Shown: piece after piece, positions 53,220 to 60,241 of the stretch
Layout: every line of letters begins with the position of its first letter
How positions within the stretch are numbered: the stretch's first letter is position 1
Assembly: GCA_020543525.1 (NCBI GenBank)
Contig: JAHYIO010000004.1
Span: 558,001 to 622,000 of the forward strand
Source of the DNA: Coriolopsis trogii
Lineage: Eukaryota; Basidiomycota; Agaricomycetes; Polyporales; Polyporaceae
Reading direction: 5' to 3'
DNA: 64,000 nt
Notes under the pieces: generated by a model
Seen by the model: only the letters and a program-made list of their open reading frames with translations
What the model was told of the DNA's origin: nothing
Database searches by the model: none
Program-made: the position numbers and the translations under genes

Positions 53220-54027
53220 CCCAGTAAGACGACGAGCTCGCGACGTCACGGTCAGCCTCCGACTATGTCCTTTTCGAGGACGAGGCTGACATAGAGGCGG
53301 GGGCTCCGAGGAGGGCTGATAACCCAGTCGAGCGACGCCCACTGGGTCTCCCTCATCTTTTCCGCGTTCTACCCCCTTCTCCCGCATTCTCGTACGTGCT
53401 GAAACGGTGCGTGTTTCTCTGCGCGGGCCACGCGGCGCACGTTGGCTGACTCCTTGCGGATAGGCTGCAGGTCATCCGAGGTGTGTCGTCGCTTGTCTGT
53501 GCGCGCTGACGTTGTGGCAGGTCCACGGAGGGCGCTGGCGCTCGACGAGCAAGGTTCAGAGAGGTGCGTGGTTCGCTGCCGTGTCTGCTCGCTGACTGGG
53601 TTGCGGGTAGGTGTGGATTGGTGGAGAGGAAGGTGAGTGGTGTGTTTGAGCGGAAAGGTGAGTCGTTTGTTTTTCTGGAAGGTGAGTCGTTTGTTTTTCT
53701 GGAAGGTGAGTCGTTTCTTTTCGAGAGAAGGTGAGTCGTTCCGTTTTGTTTTCTGGGAAGGTGAGTCGTTTCGTTTTGTTTGTGGGAGGAAGGTGAGTCG
53801 TTTCTTTGTTTCGGCTGGAAGGTGAGTCGTTTATTTGTGGTTTGGTATGAGAAAGGTGAGTCGTTTCGTTTCGTTTTCTGGGAAGGTGAGTCGTTTCTTT
53901 GTGGTTTGATATGAGACAGGTGAGTCGTTTCTTTTTGTTTTCTGAGAAGGTGAGTCGTTTCTCTTTGTTTTCTGGGAAGGTGAGTCGTTTCGCTTCGTTT
54001 GTGGGAGGAAGGTGAGTCGAGGCAAAG
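53220..54027 (+). other. Unit 1: short exons and a tandem array of 5' splice sites
   Basis: The left part (53220-53630) has GGTCAGCCTCC, the complement of the GGAGGCTGACC promoter motif of units 2 and 3, then plausible small exons such as GTCATCCGAG bounded by AG and GTGTGT. From 53631 to 54036 the sequence GGTGAGT, mostly preceded by AA and followed by CGTT, occurs 15 times with 16-35 base spacing and T/G-rich spacers. No acceptor-like AG after a polypyrimidine tract separates most of them. The array runs into conserved element copy 1. Probably a degenerate or amplified relative of units 2 and 3. No coding frame on +. Confidence 0.5.
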
Positions 54028-54160
54028 GTGAGTGTTTCCTACCCTGAGGGAGGGACTCCGGTCCTGGCGCATACCTTTTCGTGGTCCTCGGGATAAGTAC
54101 CTGCCTGCGCACTGCTCGCAACCCATCAGGCGATGCGCAGACAGGGAAACCAAAATGCGT
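54028..54160 (+). ncRNA. Conserved 130-nt structured element, copy 1
   Basis: One of three copies (also 56383, 60110). It opens GGTGAGTGTTTCC. Possible pairs: outer stem GTTTCC with GGAAAC; CCTGAGGG with TCCTCGGG (two G-U pairs); hairpin GGAC-TCCG-GTCC; and CCTG-CTGCGCA with TGCGCAG-CAGG topped by TCGC/GCGA. Relative to the other copies it lacks one base in the first line and has TGA in the frame open elsewhere, which argues against coding here. Confidence 0.45.
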
Positions 54161-54297: not shown

Positions 54298-54733
54298 CAC
54301 GGCGGGCAAAACCCCCTGAAAAGCGCGTGGAAACAGCGCATGGAATTAGGTTGCAATCTAAACATTCCGGTAAAATCCACGCTTGTTTCCAGATCAGGAC
54401 AGGTCGCCTATCCCGCCAAATCCTCACGAAGTTCCTCGCCGGTGAAATGAGGGTAAGCTGTCAAACACAATGGAATATGAGAGAAAGAGCTATGAAAGTT
54501 CACAATTCCAAGAAAAACCTGAGTTTCATAGCTCTTTCTCTTCCATAACATCGTCATTGACACCTTATCTGCCTTTGTACCCACTTCACCGGCGAGGAAA
54601 TTCATGCGAATATGGTGGGACAGGCAACCTGTCCTGATCTGGAAACGAGTGTGGGTTTCGCCGGAATGTTTAGATTTCTACCTAATTCTATGCGCTGTTT
54701 CCGTGCACTTTTCAGGGAGCTTTGCCCGCCGTG
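54298..54733. mobile_element. Foldback MITE, 436 bp
   Basis: Nearly the whole element is a long imperfect inverted repeat: each arm is about 200 bp and begins CACGGCGGGCAAA, with GGAAACAGCGCAT, ATCTAAACATTCCGG, TTTCCAGATCAGGACAGG and CTCGCCGGTGAA in both arms. The arms meet in AGAGAAAGAGCTATGAAA and its complement. TAA flanks both ends (54295-54297, 54734-54736), a 3-bp duplication of the kind made by PIF/Harbinger elements. No ORF with transposase features. Confidence 0.8.
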
Positions 54734-54736
54734 TAA

Positions 54737-55459
54737 CAGTCAGCCTCACCGTCCGCATGCGTGTCGGCTTATCGCTCAATGTGCGCGGCTGGTAAACCGA
54801 CCGTCAAACACCGACCTTTTCCTCGTCGTACGAGACGACCCGAAGGACCGCACGCATACACGCCCAGCGTAGCCCGCAGGAACCTGTTCGGAAACCAGAG
54901 CTGGCCATGACGCTCGATACCGGCGTCCAGTTCTAGTCGGCCGACAGGACTCTCGGAACGTCCAGGACAGCGCACACTTCTCTGGTCGTCGTGGACCGCG
55001 AGTGCCCACGCGAGAAGAATCGACCGTCGGCCACCACGCTACACAGCCTCGCCGTCGCACGGTGCAGCTCTGTCGGCTCAAGTCGGGAGAAGCCCTGTCA
55101 GCCTCAGGCTTCGCAAACGTCACGGTCTGTGCGCGCCTCTCGCAGACTGAGACGTGCGTCCGCATGTTCATCGGCGCAAAAATGTGAACGTGTGCGCTCC
55201 GAGGCCAGCTTCGAATGCGTGAACCCGGGCGGTCAATCGGGGATCCTCACTTGGGAGATGACGTCGGTGGCCAGCCGCGACACACTGCCAGCCTGAGTGG
55301 GACGAGCGCACGGCGAGCGACAGGCTCTCTTCACCGTGAAAGGGCTCCCCAACCGGGCGAGTCCGAACGTCAGCCAACGAGCGTCATTCGGAGGCTGGTC
55401 GTCTCTGAGCTTGAGCGGTGGCGGGAGGCTGACCGCCGCAGTGCGAGTCTGGAGACGTG
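54737..55459. promoter_or_regulatory. Upstream region of unit 2
   Basis: 0.7 kb resembling the region before unit 3. Shared blocks include GACGTCGGTGGCCAGCCGC (unit 3 has GACGTCGATAGCCAGCCGC), ACGAGCGTCAT and GGGAGGCTGACCG. Homologous promoters for repeated transcription units are the simplest reading. Confidence 0.5.
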
Positions 55460-55467
55460 CATATAAG
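55460..55467 (+). promoter_or_regulatory. TATA box of unit 2
   Basis: CATATAAG, with a homologous TATA-like box in unit 3 at the same distance from GGAGGCTGACCG. Confidence 0.5.
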
Positions 55468-55489
55468 ACGCGAGGCGAGGGCCAGGACG

Positions 55490-56382
55490 CCCTCATCATC
55501 TTGTCGACTCACCACCGCAGTGTCTCGCCGGGCTGTGACTTGGGGCGTGCGCCAGTGCGTCGTTCCTCTCTCCGACGTGATGCTGACTTGGCCTTTCTAC
55601 TGCAGGGAGGCACGAAGGTGAGTCTCCTTGCGTACTGTGTTGAGCACTTGCTGACTGTTACGTTTGTGGTAGGGACCGGCCACTTGCAGGTATGTGTCTT
55701 CTATGACTCTGGCTATCCCGGACGCGCAGCTAACTCGTCTTGACTACAGGAAGACACCGAAGGTAAGTCGTTTCCTTACTAATGTGGAGGGTGGTCACTG
55801 ACATATGTGTATGCGTAGGGACGGGCTAGGTAAGTGTCTCTTTCTGTGCTTGGGTGTGCTTGACGTTCGACAGGTTATGGGCGGCGCCGAGTGGGGTCTT
55901 GGCAAGGTACGTGGTTGTTTGTTTTATGGGCCGTAGACTGAATTTTTCCACAGCAGCGACGCGGGCCTAAAAGGTGAGTATCTTCCATTCCGAGAGGATA
56001 TCCTCAATGCTAACTCGACTTGTACAGGACGGGAAGAAGGTAAGTCGTTTACTAGCTTGACGTGTTGGATAGGAACTGACATACTTTGACGCAGTAGGGA
56101 CTGGCTAGGTAAGTGTCTTGATATGTACGTGGGTATACTTGACGTTCGACAGGTACTGGCTGTGCTGTATGTTGTCTCGAGGTGCGTGGATTACTTCATA
56201 TTCTAGGGCGAGAGCTAACCTTGTCTTCAGACGCGGATTCGGTAGGCGAGTGTTCTGTTTCTGTTTTGGCACGGGTAAGTGGCTTCTGCTGTACAGGGAG
56301 GTAAGCCAACGGCAAGAGCAAGAGCAAGAGCGAGGCGAGGCAAGGCAAGGCAAGAACGATAGCAAGCCAAGTCGATGAACAG
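55490..56382 (+). ncRNA. Unit 2: tandem micro-exon transcript, probably non-coding
   Basis: Series of very short exons between consensus GT-AG introns of about 45-70 nt with CTGAC/CTAAC branch sites. Examples: GGAGGCACGAAG; GGACCGGCCACTTGCAG; GAAGACACCGAAG; the 11-nt GGACGGGCTAG (55819-55829); a 33-nt exon; GACGGGAAGAAG; and GGACTGGCTAG (56098-56108). Most introns after the AAG exons start GTAAGTCGTTT, those after the 11-nt exon start GTAAGTGTCTT. The array ends at conserved element copy 2. Exon 1 has no ATG before the first donor. One frame reads R-x-R-R-D-G/W-L-G per module, but it meets a stop in a later exon. Splicing is predicted, not shown. Confidence 0.5.
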
Positions 56383-56515
56383 GTAAGTAGTTTCCTACCC
56401 CGAGGAAGGGACTCCGGTCCTGGCGCATACCTCTTCGTGGTCCTCGGGACAAGTACCCGTCTGCGCGCCCCCTCGCATTAGGGACCGCGCGCCGGCGGGG
56501 AAACCAAAATGCGTT
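56383..56515 (+). ncRNA. Conserved 130-nt structured element, copy 2
   Basis: Opens GGTAAGTAGTTTCCTACC directly after ...GAACA. Pairing as in the other copies: CCCGAGGA with TCCTCGGG; GGAC-TCCG-GTCC; CCCG...GCGCGC with GCGCGC...CGGG. The CCCG/CGGG pair replaces CCTG/CAGG of copy 1, a compensatory change. Also open as a reading frame up to TAG at about 56478-56480. Confidence 0.45.
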
Positions 56516-56590
56516 TTCTTTTTCACAACATGTAGCTCGGGTCTTCTCATTCGTCGAGATTGTTTGTCAGCAGACACTGCGACCTGAGTC

Positions 56591-58196
56591 CCAGTGACAA
56601 TCGACAAAGTTTGTAGATGTTTCCAGCCGTTTGTAGCCGCGGTACGGCTGGGAAACGCTAGGAAACGAGGCAAAGCGCTGCGCACGTCTACAAACATGAG
56701 TTTGAACGTGCGTCTAAATTCCCCTCCCGTTTGTGTCCGTTCGTGGCCGTTTGTGTCGTTTCGGGTCGGTTTGTGTCGGTAGCTCCTGTCAAACACGTCA
56801 GAACACGTCACGCGCGGCTGCAAACCGATGGGAAACGCTCCAAAACGATGGAATAGGCTGGGAACCGCTACAAACAGCTACAGGACCGGGTATGCTAGTA
56901 CAGGCGCCCTCCCTCCCTCCCTCTCGCCCGCCTCGTCCCACCTGCACGCCCGGATCCCAGACTCAGCACGTGCACAAAGTGGGACCCGTGCTGGGGGCGC
57001 GACCCTGTAACATGACATACAAGCATATGCGTGAGCTTCATATGAGTAGTAAGTAGATCAATGACGTACTGCGGATTTCACTTCGCCCAGTCATCAGAAC
57101 ACCCCCCCCCCCTCAGCATTGCGATGTTTCTATATTCACGTTAGCACGAGATTGCTGCATAGAATATACAAAACTTATGCGGCGATCACGAGTGTTTCCC
57201 CCCGCAGTATACCATGCATCTAAATGCTGACTGCCGCCGGCGTGGAGAGAACAGCACAGGCAGGCGACCTGTACCTGTCGATAAGTGTGTCAATGAAGTA
57301 CAAGTAGTTCAAATATGGCGACCGCACCTTTTGGTAGCTCTGGCGATGTCGTTCAATGCCTGCCATCCAGACCAACCTCGGAGAACAATGTGGTCAGATC
57401 CTTCGGACCACCTGTGGATCTGTGAATCGGAGCCCAGGAAGGCCACTCGTAGAGGTCCTGCATACAAGACGATGAGAGGTGATGCGAGTAGGAGTACGTC
57501 TGAGAGCAGTAAGAAGCATGTTGTCGCAAATCTCCTTGCGGCGAGGGACATTCTCGAATACCTCGGATCTCGGAAAGGCGTACGCACGAAGAATGGAGCG
57601 CATATATGCGCTTCTTTGGCGTAGTACTCAGTTCTAGCAGCTAGCGGGAGGAGTGCACTTGTTAGCAAGCGTGAGGCAGATGAAAGCGAGAGGACGAGAG
57701 ACCAATAGAGCGAGAGAGTAGTCTAAGTGCGAGACTGCGAGAGACTGCGAGAGACTGCGAGAGACTGCGAGAGCAAGAGGGCCAGAAAGCAAGAGAGCAA
57801 GAGAGCAAGAGAGCAAGAGAGCAAAAAAAGCAAGAGAGGGGGAAAGAAGTCCCTGTCGCAGCCTCGCATGGGGTTGCGACGAGTCTGACGTCACGCGATG
57901 GTGCTACCACATGACTTGTGGACGATGCGAACGGGAGCACGGCGGCACAAGCGCCTGGACGAATGGGCAAGGGATGTACGGACAGACAGTGCGGCAAGGT
58001 GCAGGAACTGTACACTGTACAGTGTACAGCGTACAGATGCGGACGGTGTCAGTGTCGTCGACAGCACCTGTTCGCACCAGATTGACAGGGCCCGTTGTCG
58101 TGGCTATGCTTATCAAGCGCGCGTCGCCGCTGCAAAACGACCGTCTATGCTGCAAAACGCTACAAACGGCTGCAAACATTGTCGGTTTTCACTGGG
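56591..58196. mobile_element. Non-autonomous hAT element, about 1.6 kb
   Basis: 8-bp target-site duplication CCTGAGTC (56583-56590 and 58197-58204). Imperfect ends: left CCAGTGACAATCGACAAAG, right complement CCCAGTGAAAACCGACAATG, followed in both by TTTG...CAGCCGTTTGTAGC; CAGTG is a common hAT terminus. Subterminal regions repeat GTTTGTAGC, GTTTGTGTC and GGGAAACG. The interior has no transposase; the longest ORF (57214-57624) is unrecognised. It separates unit 2 from unit 3. Confidence 0.75.
57731..57840. repeat. Simple tandem repeats inside the hAT element
   Basis: Four perfect copies of the 10-mer GAGACTGCGA (57731-57770), then a GCAAGAGA octamer run to about 57838. Purine-rich on the + strand. 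Confidence 0.8.
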
Positions 58197-58204
58197 CCTG
58201 AGTC

Positions 58205-58597
58205 ACGGGTCAGTCGTGCCAGAGTGTCGGGGTACGATGTATTTACGCACATAGGAGATCGCATGCCACCATTGATTTTGGGAGACGGGAGAGCACTTGT
58301 TCGGCAACATGGACATCTCCGCAAGCGCTTGGATACGGAAAACAAACCGACGAACACGTGCGCTCCCAGCGTAGAAAGGCCTGAACGTTGAACAGCGATC
58401 CACCGGCACTCGCACTCGGAGGTGACGTCGATAGCCAGCCGCCGAATGGGCTAATTAGGTCCGTCCAAGACCTTCACAGGGCTGCCGTGTCGGTCCCGTC
58501 CGAACAAGGGCCCACGAGCGTCATAGGGAGGGAGACGAATTTGAGGCTGACCGTGGAGGGAGGCTGACCGGCACACTTCGAGCTTGGCTAGAATCTG
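58205..58597. promoter_or_regulatory. Upstream region of unit 3
   Basis: About 0.4 kb homologous to the unit 2 upstream region, with GGAGGCTGACCG-like motifs twice (near 58540 and 58558). No gene. Confidence 0.5.
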
Positions 58598-58605
58598 CAT
58601 AAAAG
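58598..58605 (+). promoter_or_regulatory. TATA-like box of unit 3
   Basis: CATAAAAG at the position homologous to the TATA box of unit 2. Confidence 0.45.
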
Positions 58606-58619
58606 GCTCGATACGAGAG

Positions 58620-60109
58620 CGGGGACTCCCTCGTCGCCTTCCCCGCCTACTACCGTCGCGACTCGACTGGCTTTGACTCGGGTTTGTGCTCGTACGTAGA
58701 GGTTCTTCGGGCTCCCACTGCCCAGCTGACTTGTCTCTGCTCTAGTGCGGGAAGAAAGTCGTCCGCTCGCGTACTGTATGGGATACTCACCGACTACGTG
58801 TATGTGATAGGGACAAGTACGTGTCTTCTTGACTGTCTCTGACGCGAGGCTGACCAGTCTCTTCCCTAGGAGGCAGAAGGTAAGTCGTCTCCTCGTATTG
58901 CATGTTGGATAGGAACTGACATACTGGTGCGGTAGGGACTGGTTAGGTATGTGTCTCTTTGTGTTCATGGGTATGCTTGACGTTGAACAGGTCCTGGCGA
59001 TCCTGAGCGCTGGTACGATGAGAACTGCAGAGAAGGTGAGTCGTTTCCTCGTACGGAGTGTGGGATGACTACTCACTGTCATGCACGCGATACGAACTAG
59101 CCGGTACGTATCTCCGACTCGCTCTCCTTCGGACGTGCAGCTAACTCGTGTTGTTCACAGGAAGGAAAGGAGGTAAGTCGTCTCTTTGCGTAACGTGGGT
59201 GATGAGAATACTGACATACGTGCATAGATTGGGACGGGCTAGGTAAGTGTCTCTTTACGTTCTTGGGTATCCTTGACGCCCAACAGGTACCGGCGACGCT
59301 GAGCATGTCCGCGAATGCAGGAAAGGTGAGTCGTGTCTTTTCTGACTCGCACGGTGTCGCGCGTGCGGCTTACTGCTGTCTACCACAGGAAGGCAAAGGT
59401 AAGTCATTTCCTCGCATCGCGTGTGGGGCACTTACTGACATACGTATTCACGGTAGGGACTGGCTAGGTATGTGTCTCTTCATGTCCGTGGGTATCATTG
59501 ATGTTCGCAGGCACTGTTAATGGGAAGACGATATGATACGGACGAGCGAGTGGGAGGTACGTGTCTTCATAACCGCGGCGTCCAGTGTCTCAGGGAGCTG
59601 ACTTGCCTCGAATACAGGTCTGCAAGAAGGTAAGTCGTTTCCTCGTATAGCGTGTGGGGTGTTTACTGACATAAGTGTGCGCGGTAGGGACTGGCTAGGT
59701 ACGTGTCTCTTTATATCTATAGGTATGCTTGACGTTCGCAGGTCCTACCGTTGGGAAGAGGATGTGGTACGAGGATGTGGTACGGACAAGCCAGTGGCAG
59801 GTATGTCTTCACGACCGCGGCTTCCAGTGTTCCAGACGTGATGCTGACTCGCATTGACTACAGAAACACGAAAGGTAAGTCGTTTCCTTGCATAGCGTGG
59901 TGGATAGGAACTGACATACATGGCGCGGTAGGGACTGGCTAGGTACGTGTTTCTCTCTGTCTGTGGAGTTGCTTGACGTTGGACAGGTCCGGTGAGTGCC
60001 GAGAGCCATCAAGGTGTGTGACCTCTTGCTTCCCAGATCGATAGCTGAGGGGAAACTCGTTTAAACAGCAATGAAGGTTGAGCGAGCAAGAAGGTCATTC
60101 GACGGCAAG
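58620..60109 (+). ncRNA. Unit 3: tandem micro-exon transcript, probably non-coding
   Basis: Five tandem modules spaced 225-296 bp. Each has a 10-13 nt exon ending AAG or GAG, an intron starting GTAAGTC with ACTGACATA near its 3' end, the 11-nt exon GGACTGG(C/T)TAG (58936, 59457, 59688, 59932; variant with a 4-nt extension at 59232), an intron starting GTAAGTG/GTATGTG/GTACGTG and ending CTTGACGTTC..CAG, then an exon of about 27-60 nt and a third intron. In one frame modules read RRDWLG then diverse residues; module 3 has TGA where module 4 has TGG, and the first exon has no ATG. The last exons keep this frame open into conserved element copy 3. I favour a non-coding or decayed micro-exon gene. 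Confidence 0.5.
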
Positions 60110-60241
60110 GTAAGTCGTTTCCTACCCCGAGGAAGGGACTCCGGTCCTGGCGCATACCTCTCCGTGGTCCTCGGGACGAGTACTCGCCTGCGCACCGCCT
60201 CACCTTTGGTGACGGCGCGCAGACGGGGAAACCAAATGCGC
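60110..60241 (+). ncRNA. Conserved 130-nt structured element, copy 3
   Basis: Opens GGTAAGTCGTTTCCTACC after GACGGCAA. Stems as in the other copies, with the third hairpin longest: CTGCGC/GCGCAG, GCC/GGC and TCACC/GGTGA; the lower part is CTCG with CGGG (one G-U). A frame open through it ends at TAG 60317-60319; against copy 2 three of five early differences in that frame are silent, so coding is not excluded. Confidence 0.45.

Follow-up and report, generated by a model that had tools for sequence, protein, structure and literature searches.

A variant class of hepatitis delta virus (HDV)-like ribozymes has been described from fungi, with 230 representatives in 26 species (Li & Breaker 2017, PMC5640933). 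It departs from the HDV consensus in three ways: C-G takes the place of the general purine-pyrimidine (R-Y) pair at the cleavage site, P4 is partly replaced by a loop E, and an extra nucleotide, usually C, stands between P2 and P3. Cleavage was demonstrated for two of these variants (Penicillium chrysogenum and Aspergillus niger), and the gene associations of the class are widely variable with no settled job (PMC5640933). Here we describe a predicted HDV-like ribozyme of this fungal type at the 3' end of three putative transcription units, designated U0 (53240-54160), U1 (55460-56514) and U2 (58598-60241), on the plus strand of a 64,000-nucleotide stretch of Coriolopsis trogii DNA (contig JAHYIO010000004.1, positions 558,001 to 622,000; hereafter the window). 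The genome of the window (38.8 Mb, 39 contigs) was searched for further copies.

The comparisons made here with described systems draw on excerpts of the cited reports. The C. trogii elements share with the variants of Li & Breaker the nested double pseudoknot, the three marks and a fungal host. They differ in standing at the 3' ends of related units, often just after a 5' splice site, and in carrying a hairpin in J1/2. A helix at this position (P1.2) speeds cleavage in large HDV-like ribozymes such as drz-Agam-2-1 (Webb et al. 2016, PMC4908430), which likewise has a stable hairpin between P1 and P2 but is of mosquito origin; neither a C-G cut pair nor loop E is described in that excerpt. The HDV-like CPEB3 ribozyme lies in a mammalian intron of a protein-coding gene transcribed by RNA polymerase II (Pol II) (PMC8233481), whereas the units studied here are probably non-coding, and their elements can follow the last 5' splice site directly, with no evident downstream exon. 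Finally, MUSHER and other non-coding RNAs of plants bind the U1 small nuclear ribonucleoprotein (U1 snRNP) and are retained on chromatin by it, with animal cases also cited (PMC12354759). These RNAs differ from ours in their plant origin, the excerpt makes no mention of a ribozyme, and U1 snRNP binding by the C. trogii RNAs is a prediction.

We favour, at a probability of about one half, the reading that these loci would specify a family of spliced, mostly probably non-coding Pol II RNAs that end in a fungal-type HDV-like ribozyme instead of, or ahead of, a poly(A) site. The fungal variant class is itself known; what appears to be new is its place as the terminal piece of units, in many members preceded by an orphan 5' splice site. 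Among open-licence papers, none was found that describes a fungal HDV-like ribozyme either terminating spliced non-coding genes or preceded by such a site.

Fold and genomic copies of the end element

The end element was found in 22 copies spread over seven contigs, a number that is a lower bound. Ten copies were recovered by DNA similarity, an eleventh by a core pattern (≤3 mismatches) and the rest by patterns of the 3' part and of variant cores. Type A comprises ten copies (three in the window, three on contig C1, two on C6 and one each on C3 and C28), type B three (two on C7, one of them degenerate, and one on C34) and type C nine, all on contig C4. Four of the type C copies are known by core match alone. 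The other 18 copies were read, and 17 of these keep the fold; the copy at C7:669848 has a degenerate P1 and is excluded from the 17 intact copies to which the counts below refer. Among 17 places matched by pattern, three (C1:2050550, C1:3483391 and C8:991699) showed no ribozyme fold by eye and were rejected. The 31-base core pattern had no exact match in IMG/VR viral contigs. Contig C4 carries 12 of the 22 copies overall; its type C copies are at 1150648, 1174442, 1210648, 1566968, 1595972, 1606689, 1607621, 1608600 and 1909289, and three type C ribozymes lie about 950 bp apart.

When the ten first-found copies were aligned to a double-pseudoknot model (P1, hairpin, P2, P3 and P4), 97.0% of 300 cells were paired, compared to at most 45.3% when the partners were slid by 1-3 columns. 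Nine two-sided pair changes were detected, seven in P4 and two in P1, compared to 2.0 in shuffles, and none of 500 shuffles reached nine. The nested order P1-P2-P3-P3'-P1'-P4-P2' was present in all 17 intact copies, with compensatory changes in P1, P3 and P4. P3 was found to be ACC/GGU in 12 copies, GCC/GGC in four and GCC/GGA in one; one P3 pair was broken in one copy and one P1 pair in copy C6b. The P4 hairpin recurred in 17 of 17 despite wide differences in sequence and length, and the J1/2 segment (16 to 68 nt) formed a hairpin in every copy. L3 was 7 nt throughout, with U first and G sixth, and J4/2 was ACCAA or GCYAA in 16 copies and ACCGA in one. Copy C6b, which combines its broken P1 pair with an altered L3 and an altered splice site, may be decaying. 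A descriptor of the fold matched three places in the window, all at the three elements and none on the minus strand, and had 4 matches in 113 Mb of dinucleotide-shuffled window sequence. Because the descriptor was tuned on the family itself, it serves as a test against chance only; its junction intervals are tight, and it detects nine of the 18 read copies.

Set against the published text description, this anatomy places the end element, as a predicted ribozyme, in the fungal HDV variant class. A 3-bp P3 with a 7-nt loop, a J4/2 of the type C-N-A-A and the helix order are features of HDV-like ribozymes, and we take the match to HDV to hold at the level of residues, with the J4/2 C presumably the counterpart of the HDV catalytic C. 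A C-G pair is found at the predicted cut in 17 of 17 copies. At its base, P4 has AGUA opposite GAA in 17 of 17 copies, which we take to be a loop-E signature, bearing in mind that the extraction pattern itself required AGTAC and GGAA, which every intact copy passed. An extra nucleotide between P2 and P3 is likewise universal (U in nine copies, A in one and G in seven); since the U carried by nine type A copies can pair with A or G, this nucleotide is unpaired only in types B and C and in the C28 copy.

Placement at the 3' ends of related units

The flanks of 14 copies were compared on the same strand (E ≤ 0.001). Upstream, U1 matched U2, the three contig C1 copies (C1a, C1b and C1c) matched one another and C6a, U0 matched C6a and C6b through 5'-splice-site arrays, and C4x matched C4y (77% over 846 bp). 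Downstream, the sole match was one of 80 bp between C6a and C6b, about 270-345 bp behind the ribozyme. Thus, with this one short exception, the ribozyme is the last common piece of the related units and marks their 3' ends. At the other end, TATA-like boxes were seen by eye before U1, U2, the C1 units, C6a, C3, C34 and the two C4 units read at length; none was evident by eye for U0. The motif GTCAGCCTCC or a near match was seen before U0, C1a, C1b, C1c, C6a and C28, and its reverse complement before U1 and U2, also by eye; it is perhaps the site of a common regulator. A longer form, GTCAGCCTCCNTRGGC, occurred at 22 places in the genome (≤1 mismatch) compared to 9 for the reversed control, and four of these were at ribozyme-family units. 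It was rejected as a shared promoter motif; two further exact matches (L027 and L028) had no ribozyme by eye.

The ribozyme often directly follows a 5' splice site. Of the 12 intact type A and B copies, 11 have a GTRNGT 6-23 nt upstream of P1 and the twelfth (C6b) has GTAACT; at the rate of the window, the chance of a GTRNGT in such an interval is about 6%. For the C7 and C34 copies, the predicted cut falls exactly behind GTACGT and GTAAGT, respectively; by eye, the leaders of C7, C34 and C28 share only the splice site with the other leaders. Longer 5'-splice-site motifs were also counted. AGGTRNGT occurred 17 times in U0, 10 in U1 and 16 in U2 (shuffle means 0.27-0.44, that of U0 being 0.30) and 1-5 times in each of eleven other units, with none on the minus strand across all 14 units; over the first 53 kb of the window, the rate was 0.34 per kb. 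The extended site AAGGTGAGTCGTTTC (≤1 mismatch) was detected at 28 places in the genome, 21 in ribozyme-family units and 7 elsewhere.

From this arrangement we infer a route by which transcription, splicing and self-cleavage would yield a nuclear RNA that binds U1 snRNP. A transcript would start near the TATA-like box and be spliced, in U1 and U2 by joining of tandemly duplicated micro-exon modules, and would end in a last exon plus a 5' splice site without evident partner. Directly behind this orphan site the ribozyme would fold and cut at the base of P1. The cut would lie 15-16 nt beyond the last exon in the window copies and 6-23 nt beyond it in other copies having the site, and would separate the orphan site from whatever follows. 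Cleavage would leave the upstream product with a 2',3'-cyclic phosphate, and with a U1 snRNP-binding site free, at its end. The last exon is normally defined by the poly(A) signal; here the terminal 5' splice site, most likely bound by U1 snRNP, would define it instead, and U1 snRNP binding would tether the RNA in the nucleus. The case for such a part of U1 snRNP is strengthened by the 5'-splice-site arrays in U0, U1, U2 and two contig C6 units. A fuller proposal is put forward tentatively: at least 22 loci would be spliced Pol II genes finished by a built-in HDV-like ribozyme and not by polyadenylation, in many of them an orphan 5' splice site just upstream of the cut would take on last-exon definition and hold U1 snRNP, and tandem growth of micro-exons and 5' splice sites would, in some members, tune the number of bound U1 particles.

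If true, fungal HDV-like ribozymes would have a concrete role, namely to leave a non-polyadenylated 3' end with a U1 snRNP site on a spliced RNA, and this consistent position at the 3' ends of related units contrasts with the variable associations of the roughly 230 fungal copies (PMC5640933). If confirmed, such an unusual way of finishing an RNA would provide natural tests of last-exon definition without a poly(A) signal and of the splicing of 11-nt exons between introns of 43-64 nt.

Several observations weigh against a family of non-coding RNAs ended by a ribozyme of this class. The general R-Y pair at the cut is replaced by C-G, and it is because the fungal variant subclass typically has C-G there that the copies are filed under it. 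No Rfam match was obtained at permissive thresholds for 53-61 kb, the U2 element or the C1c element among 4227 models, presumably including that of HDV, all scores being far below the gathering score. P2 is nearly invariant and without two-sided changes, so that this helix rests on complementarity and not on covariation, and P1.1 (columns 69-70 with 86-88) shows no consistent two-pair helix. Single hairpins were matched by up to 23 (J1/2) and 28 (P4) of 200 shuffles, with a range from 0; as individual hairpins are not always better than shuffles, their support comes from recurrence. With regard to placement, C3, C28, C7 and C34 (4 of 14) match no other copy upstream. Most type A copies are close relatives, and their terminal 5' splice sites therefore do not count as ten independent cases. 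In the five read type C copies, the 13-28 nt that immediately precede P1 contain no 5' splice site. Finally, the C28 copy follows a 277-aa open frame with two introns (L017 229-1181), and the RNA ended by its ribozyme may be an mRNA instead of a non-coding one.

An alternative that we regard as unlikely is a switch in which the ribozyme sits at the 5' end of an ordinary intron and its cleavage competes with splicing to a downstream exon. CPEB3 provides a precedent, the consensus 5' splice site directly before 11 of the 12 intact type A and B copies would be that of the intron, and a pyrimidine run and an AG were seen by eye behind some copies. By contrast, no branch-site-like motif was seen, by eye only, between the ribozyme and those AGs, and the downstream flanks are unrelated among copies with related upstream flanks. 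The gene after U2, adenylosuccinate lyase, points the other way, and the five read type C copies, which lack a 5' splice site directly before P1, do not fit such a switch.

Distinctly unlikely is a decoy, in which the many 5' splice sites would titrate or sequester U1 snRNP and the RNA, with micro-exons too short for good splicing, would act as a splicing sink. Such a role is compatible with the abundance of AGGTRNGT on the plus strand of U0, U1 and U2, and with the array in U0, which is without rule-defined introns. A pure 5'-site decoy would not, however, need the branch and 3' splice sites that in U1 and U2 are as strictly conserved as the 5' sites (see below). The eleven other units, with just 1-5 sites each, and the usual abundance of U1 snRNP also count against it.

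The HDV-like ribozymes of other eukaryotes are linked to retrotransposons (PMC4035085, PMC3774820), and the copies described here are spread across seven contigs; they could accordingly be retroelement remains (cf. R2 and L1Tc/ingi) for which the units are chance hosts. This origin is very unlikely, as the flank that is shared lies upstream, whereas a ribozyme at the 5' end of a retroelement would share the downstream body, and compensatory changes keep the structure in diverged copies. No reverse transcriptase was detected by Pfam in seven neighbouring frames, four of them without any match, no wider search having been made.

Micro-exon modules of U1 and U2

Schistosome micro-exon genes are chains of very short exons that encode secreted proteins. 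The exon chains of U1 and U2 are similarly short, and differ in having stops in all frames. The initial annotation of this DNA had proposed two same-strand micro-exon units in one region (55460..60110). U1 and U2 bear out the two units; U0, which shares the end element and carries a succession of 5'-splice-site motifs, was overlooked, and about 56.5-58.5 kb, between U1 and U2, belongs to neither unit. The TATA-like boxes, related upstream stretch (62 bp, 71%) and shared terminal element that had been noted are all present.

The 11-nt exon GGACTGGCTAG or a one-base variant occurs, as proposed, in seven copies (≤1 mismatch), all on the plus strand. Neighbours within a unit are 279, 296, 225, 231 and 244 bp apart, in agreement with a module spacing of 225-296 bp. 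The consensus splice sites said to flank every copy were found with one departure: TAG directly precedes six of the seven; at 59232 the triplet is TTG, and a TAG lies four bases further upstream. On its own, the 11-mer is unremarkable, with 15 window matches at ≤2 mismatches versus 18.8 expected. The flanked form, TAG plus the 11-mer plus GTRNGTG, was detected seven times in the genome at ≤2 mismatches, in all cases in U1 or U2, and its reversed control not at all.

Introns were called by rule as GTRNGT followed by CTRAY or TTGACG and then YAG, at a length of 38-75 nt. By this approach, 9 introns were found in U1, 14 in U2 and 3 in U0 on the plus strand and none on the minus strand, compared to shuffle means of 0.29, 0.57 and 0.09, respectively; for each unit, none of 1000 shuffles reached the observed count. 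Tiles of 1500 bases in the rest of the window carried at most 5. The introns of U1 and U2 measured 43-64 nt, the initial estimate having been about 45-70 nt. When seven modules were aligned, mean identity at the first and second 5' splice sites was 0.98 and 0.90 (the second taken with its extension), and at the corresponding branch sites 1.00 and 0.98; the 11-nt exon scored 0.96 and the CAG after the second branch site 0.97. Intron interiors were less conserved (0.73, 0.71 and 0.79), as was the third exon, exon c (0.66); selection thus appears to have acted on splicing and on the 11-mer rather than on exon c. That the splice-site pattern is a by-product of a non-transcribed DNA repeat is extremely improbable, since, even though the modules are tandem duplicates with each motif copied along, the gap between signals (90-100%) and interiors speaks for selection on the former, and base pairs are kept at the RNA level in the end element.

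The exon set had been judged too stop-rich for an ordinary protein, and this holds: with the exons of U1 or U2 joined in silico, no frame was open throughout, and ATG-started frames reached, by eye, at most about 31 codons. This joining used a hand-made intron list with several doubtful or misplaced borders; the intron counts above use the rule instead. A protein-coding micro-exon gene family was rejected on account of the stops in all frames. Taken together, the intron counts relative to shuffles, the splice-signal conservation and the lack of an open frame indicate that U1 and U2 are probably non-coding micro-exon transcription units. The initial interpretation is supported in this respect and so in part, but the repeated exon does not define the family. 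The terminal element, in many copies just after a 5' splice site, does so, with the micro-exons as one local elaboration; the element occurs at 22 places in the genome versus a flanked 11-nt exon confined to U1 and U2 (≤2 mismatches). A ribozyme origin of the modules is hinted at: when joined, the exons of the first U2 module (58870-59035) resemble the J1/2-P2 part of the three window ribozymes, with 0, 2 and 5 of 500 shuffles as good. The other modules gave no clear signal, 10 to 402 of 500 shuffles being as good for the six of them compared with the U2 ribozyme.

Coordinates, neighbouring genes and repeats

Table 1. Features of units U0, U1 and U2 in the window (ribozymes and their cuts are predicted).
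Feature	Position	Strand	Remarks
U0 body	53240..54042	+	GTCAGCCTCC motif 53251-53260; three intron-like stretches, then 5'-splice-site array
U0 intron-like stretches	53392-53463, 53481-53520, 53564-53610	+	
U0 5'-splice-site array	53627 to ~54000	+	AAGGTGAGTCGTTT every 24-34 nt; no rule-defined introns between motifs
U0 terminal 5' splice site	54028..54033	+	GTGAGT; its G 15 nt before predicted cut
U0 HDV-like ribozyme	54043..54160	+	Cut 54042/54043
U0 P1a; P2a	54043-54049; 54066-54071		
U0 P3; P1b	54073-54075/54083-54085; 54086-54092		
U0 AGUA; J4/2; P2b	54096-54099; 54148-54155; 54156-54160		
U1	55460..56398	+	TATA-like CATATAAG at 55460; nine rule-defined introns, 44-64 nt
U1 11-nt exons	55819-55829, 56098-56108	+	
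U1 3' part	56383	+	Purine-rich last exon; position is that of terminal 5' splice site
U1 HDV-like ribozyme	56399..56514	+	Cut 56398/56399
U1 P1a; J1/2 hairpin; P2a; extra nt	56399-56405; 56406-56421; 56422-56427; 56428		
U1 P3a; L3; P3b; P1b	56429-56431; 56432-56438; 56439-56441; 56442-56448		
U1 AGUA; J4/2; P2b	56452-56455; 56502-56509; 56510-56514		
U2	58598..60125	+	TATA-like CATAAAAGG at 58598; 14 rule-defined introns, 43-63 nt
U2 11-nt exons (starts)	58936, 59232, 59457, 59688, 59932	+	
U2 module (one complete)	59618..59800	+	Exon a 59618-59629, intron, exon b GGACTGGCTAG 59688-59698, intron, exon c 59742-59800
U2 terminal 5' splice site	60110	+	GTAAGT
U2 HDV-like ribozyme	60126..60241	+	Cut 60125/60126
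U2 P1a; J1/2 hairpin; P2a; extra nt	60126-60132; 60133-60148; 60149-60154; 60155		
U2 P3a; L3; P3b; P1b	60156-60158; 60159-60165; 60166-60168; 60169-60175		
U2 AGUA; J4/2; P2b	60179-60182; 60230-60236; 60237-60241		

No tRNA or tmRNA was detected in the window. Of seven frames neighbouring the copies, three were matched by Pfam (glyoxal oxidase, WD40 and adenylosuccinate lyase) and four were not, with no common theme. The 277-aa frame before the C28 ribozyme had no relatives at E ≤ 0.001 among 2047 candidates. The glyoxal oxidase frame adjoins the C3 copy; its best named relatives are from Cerioporus squamosus (81%) and Polyporus arcularius (79%), followed by proteins of Daedaleopsis, Cubamyces and Trametes, with one Rickenella protein ranking between. 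These relatives very probably place the fungus among the white-rot polypores of the Polyporaceae.

Repeats were seen at several of the loci. The C3 unit (L016 863-1240) has a 74-bp tandem repeat of 5.1 copies (95% matches) before its ribozyme. Repeats were likewise seen by eye before the ribozymes of the C7 and C34 units, and a tandem repeat finder reported none in C7. A purine-rich simple repeat of GAGAGACTGC and AGAGAGCA units lies between U1 and U2 (57680-57830). Behind the U0 ribozyme, a palindromic fold-back element of about 430 bp occupies 54300-54740 of the window and is also found inside the C1a unit (L013, minus strand). Its ends match by eye (GGGCAAA..CTCCCTGAAA ... TTTTCAGGGAGCTTTGCCCGCC), and it is probably a repeat of the miniature inverted-repeat transposable element type.

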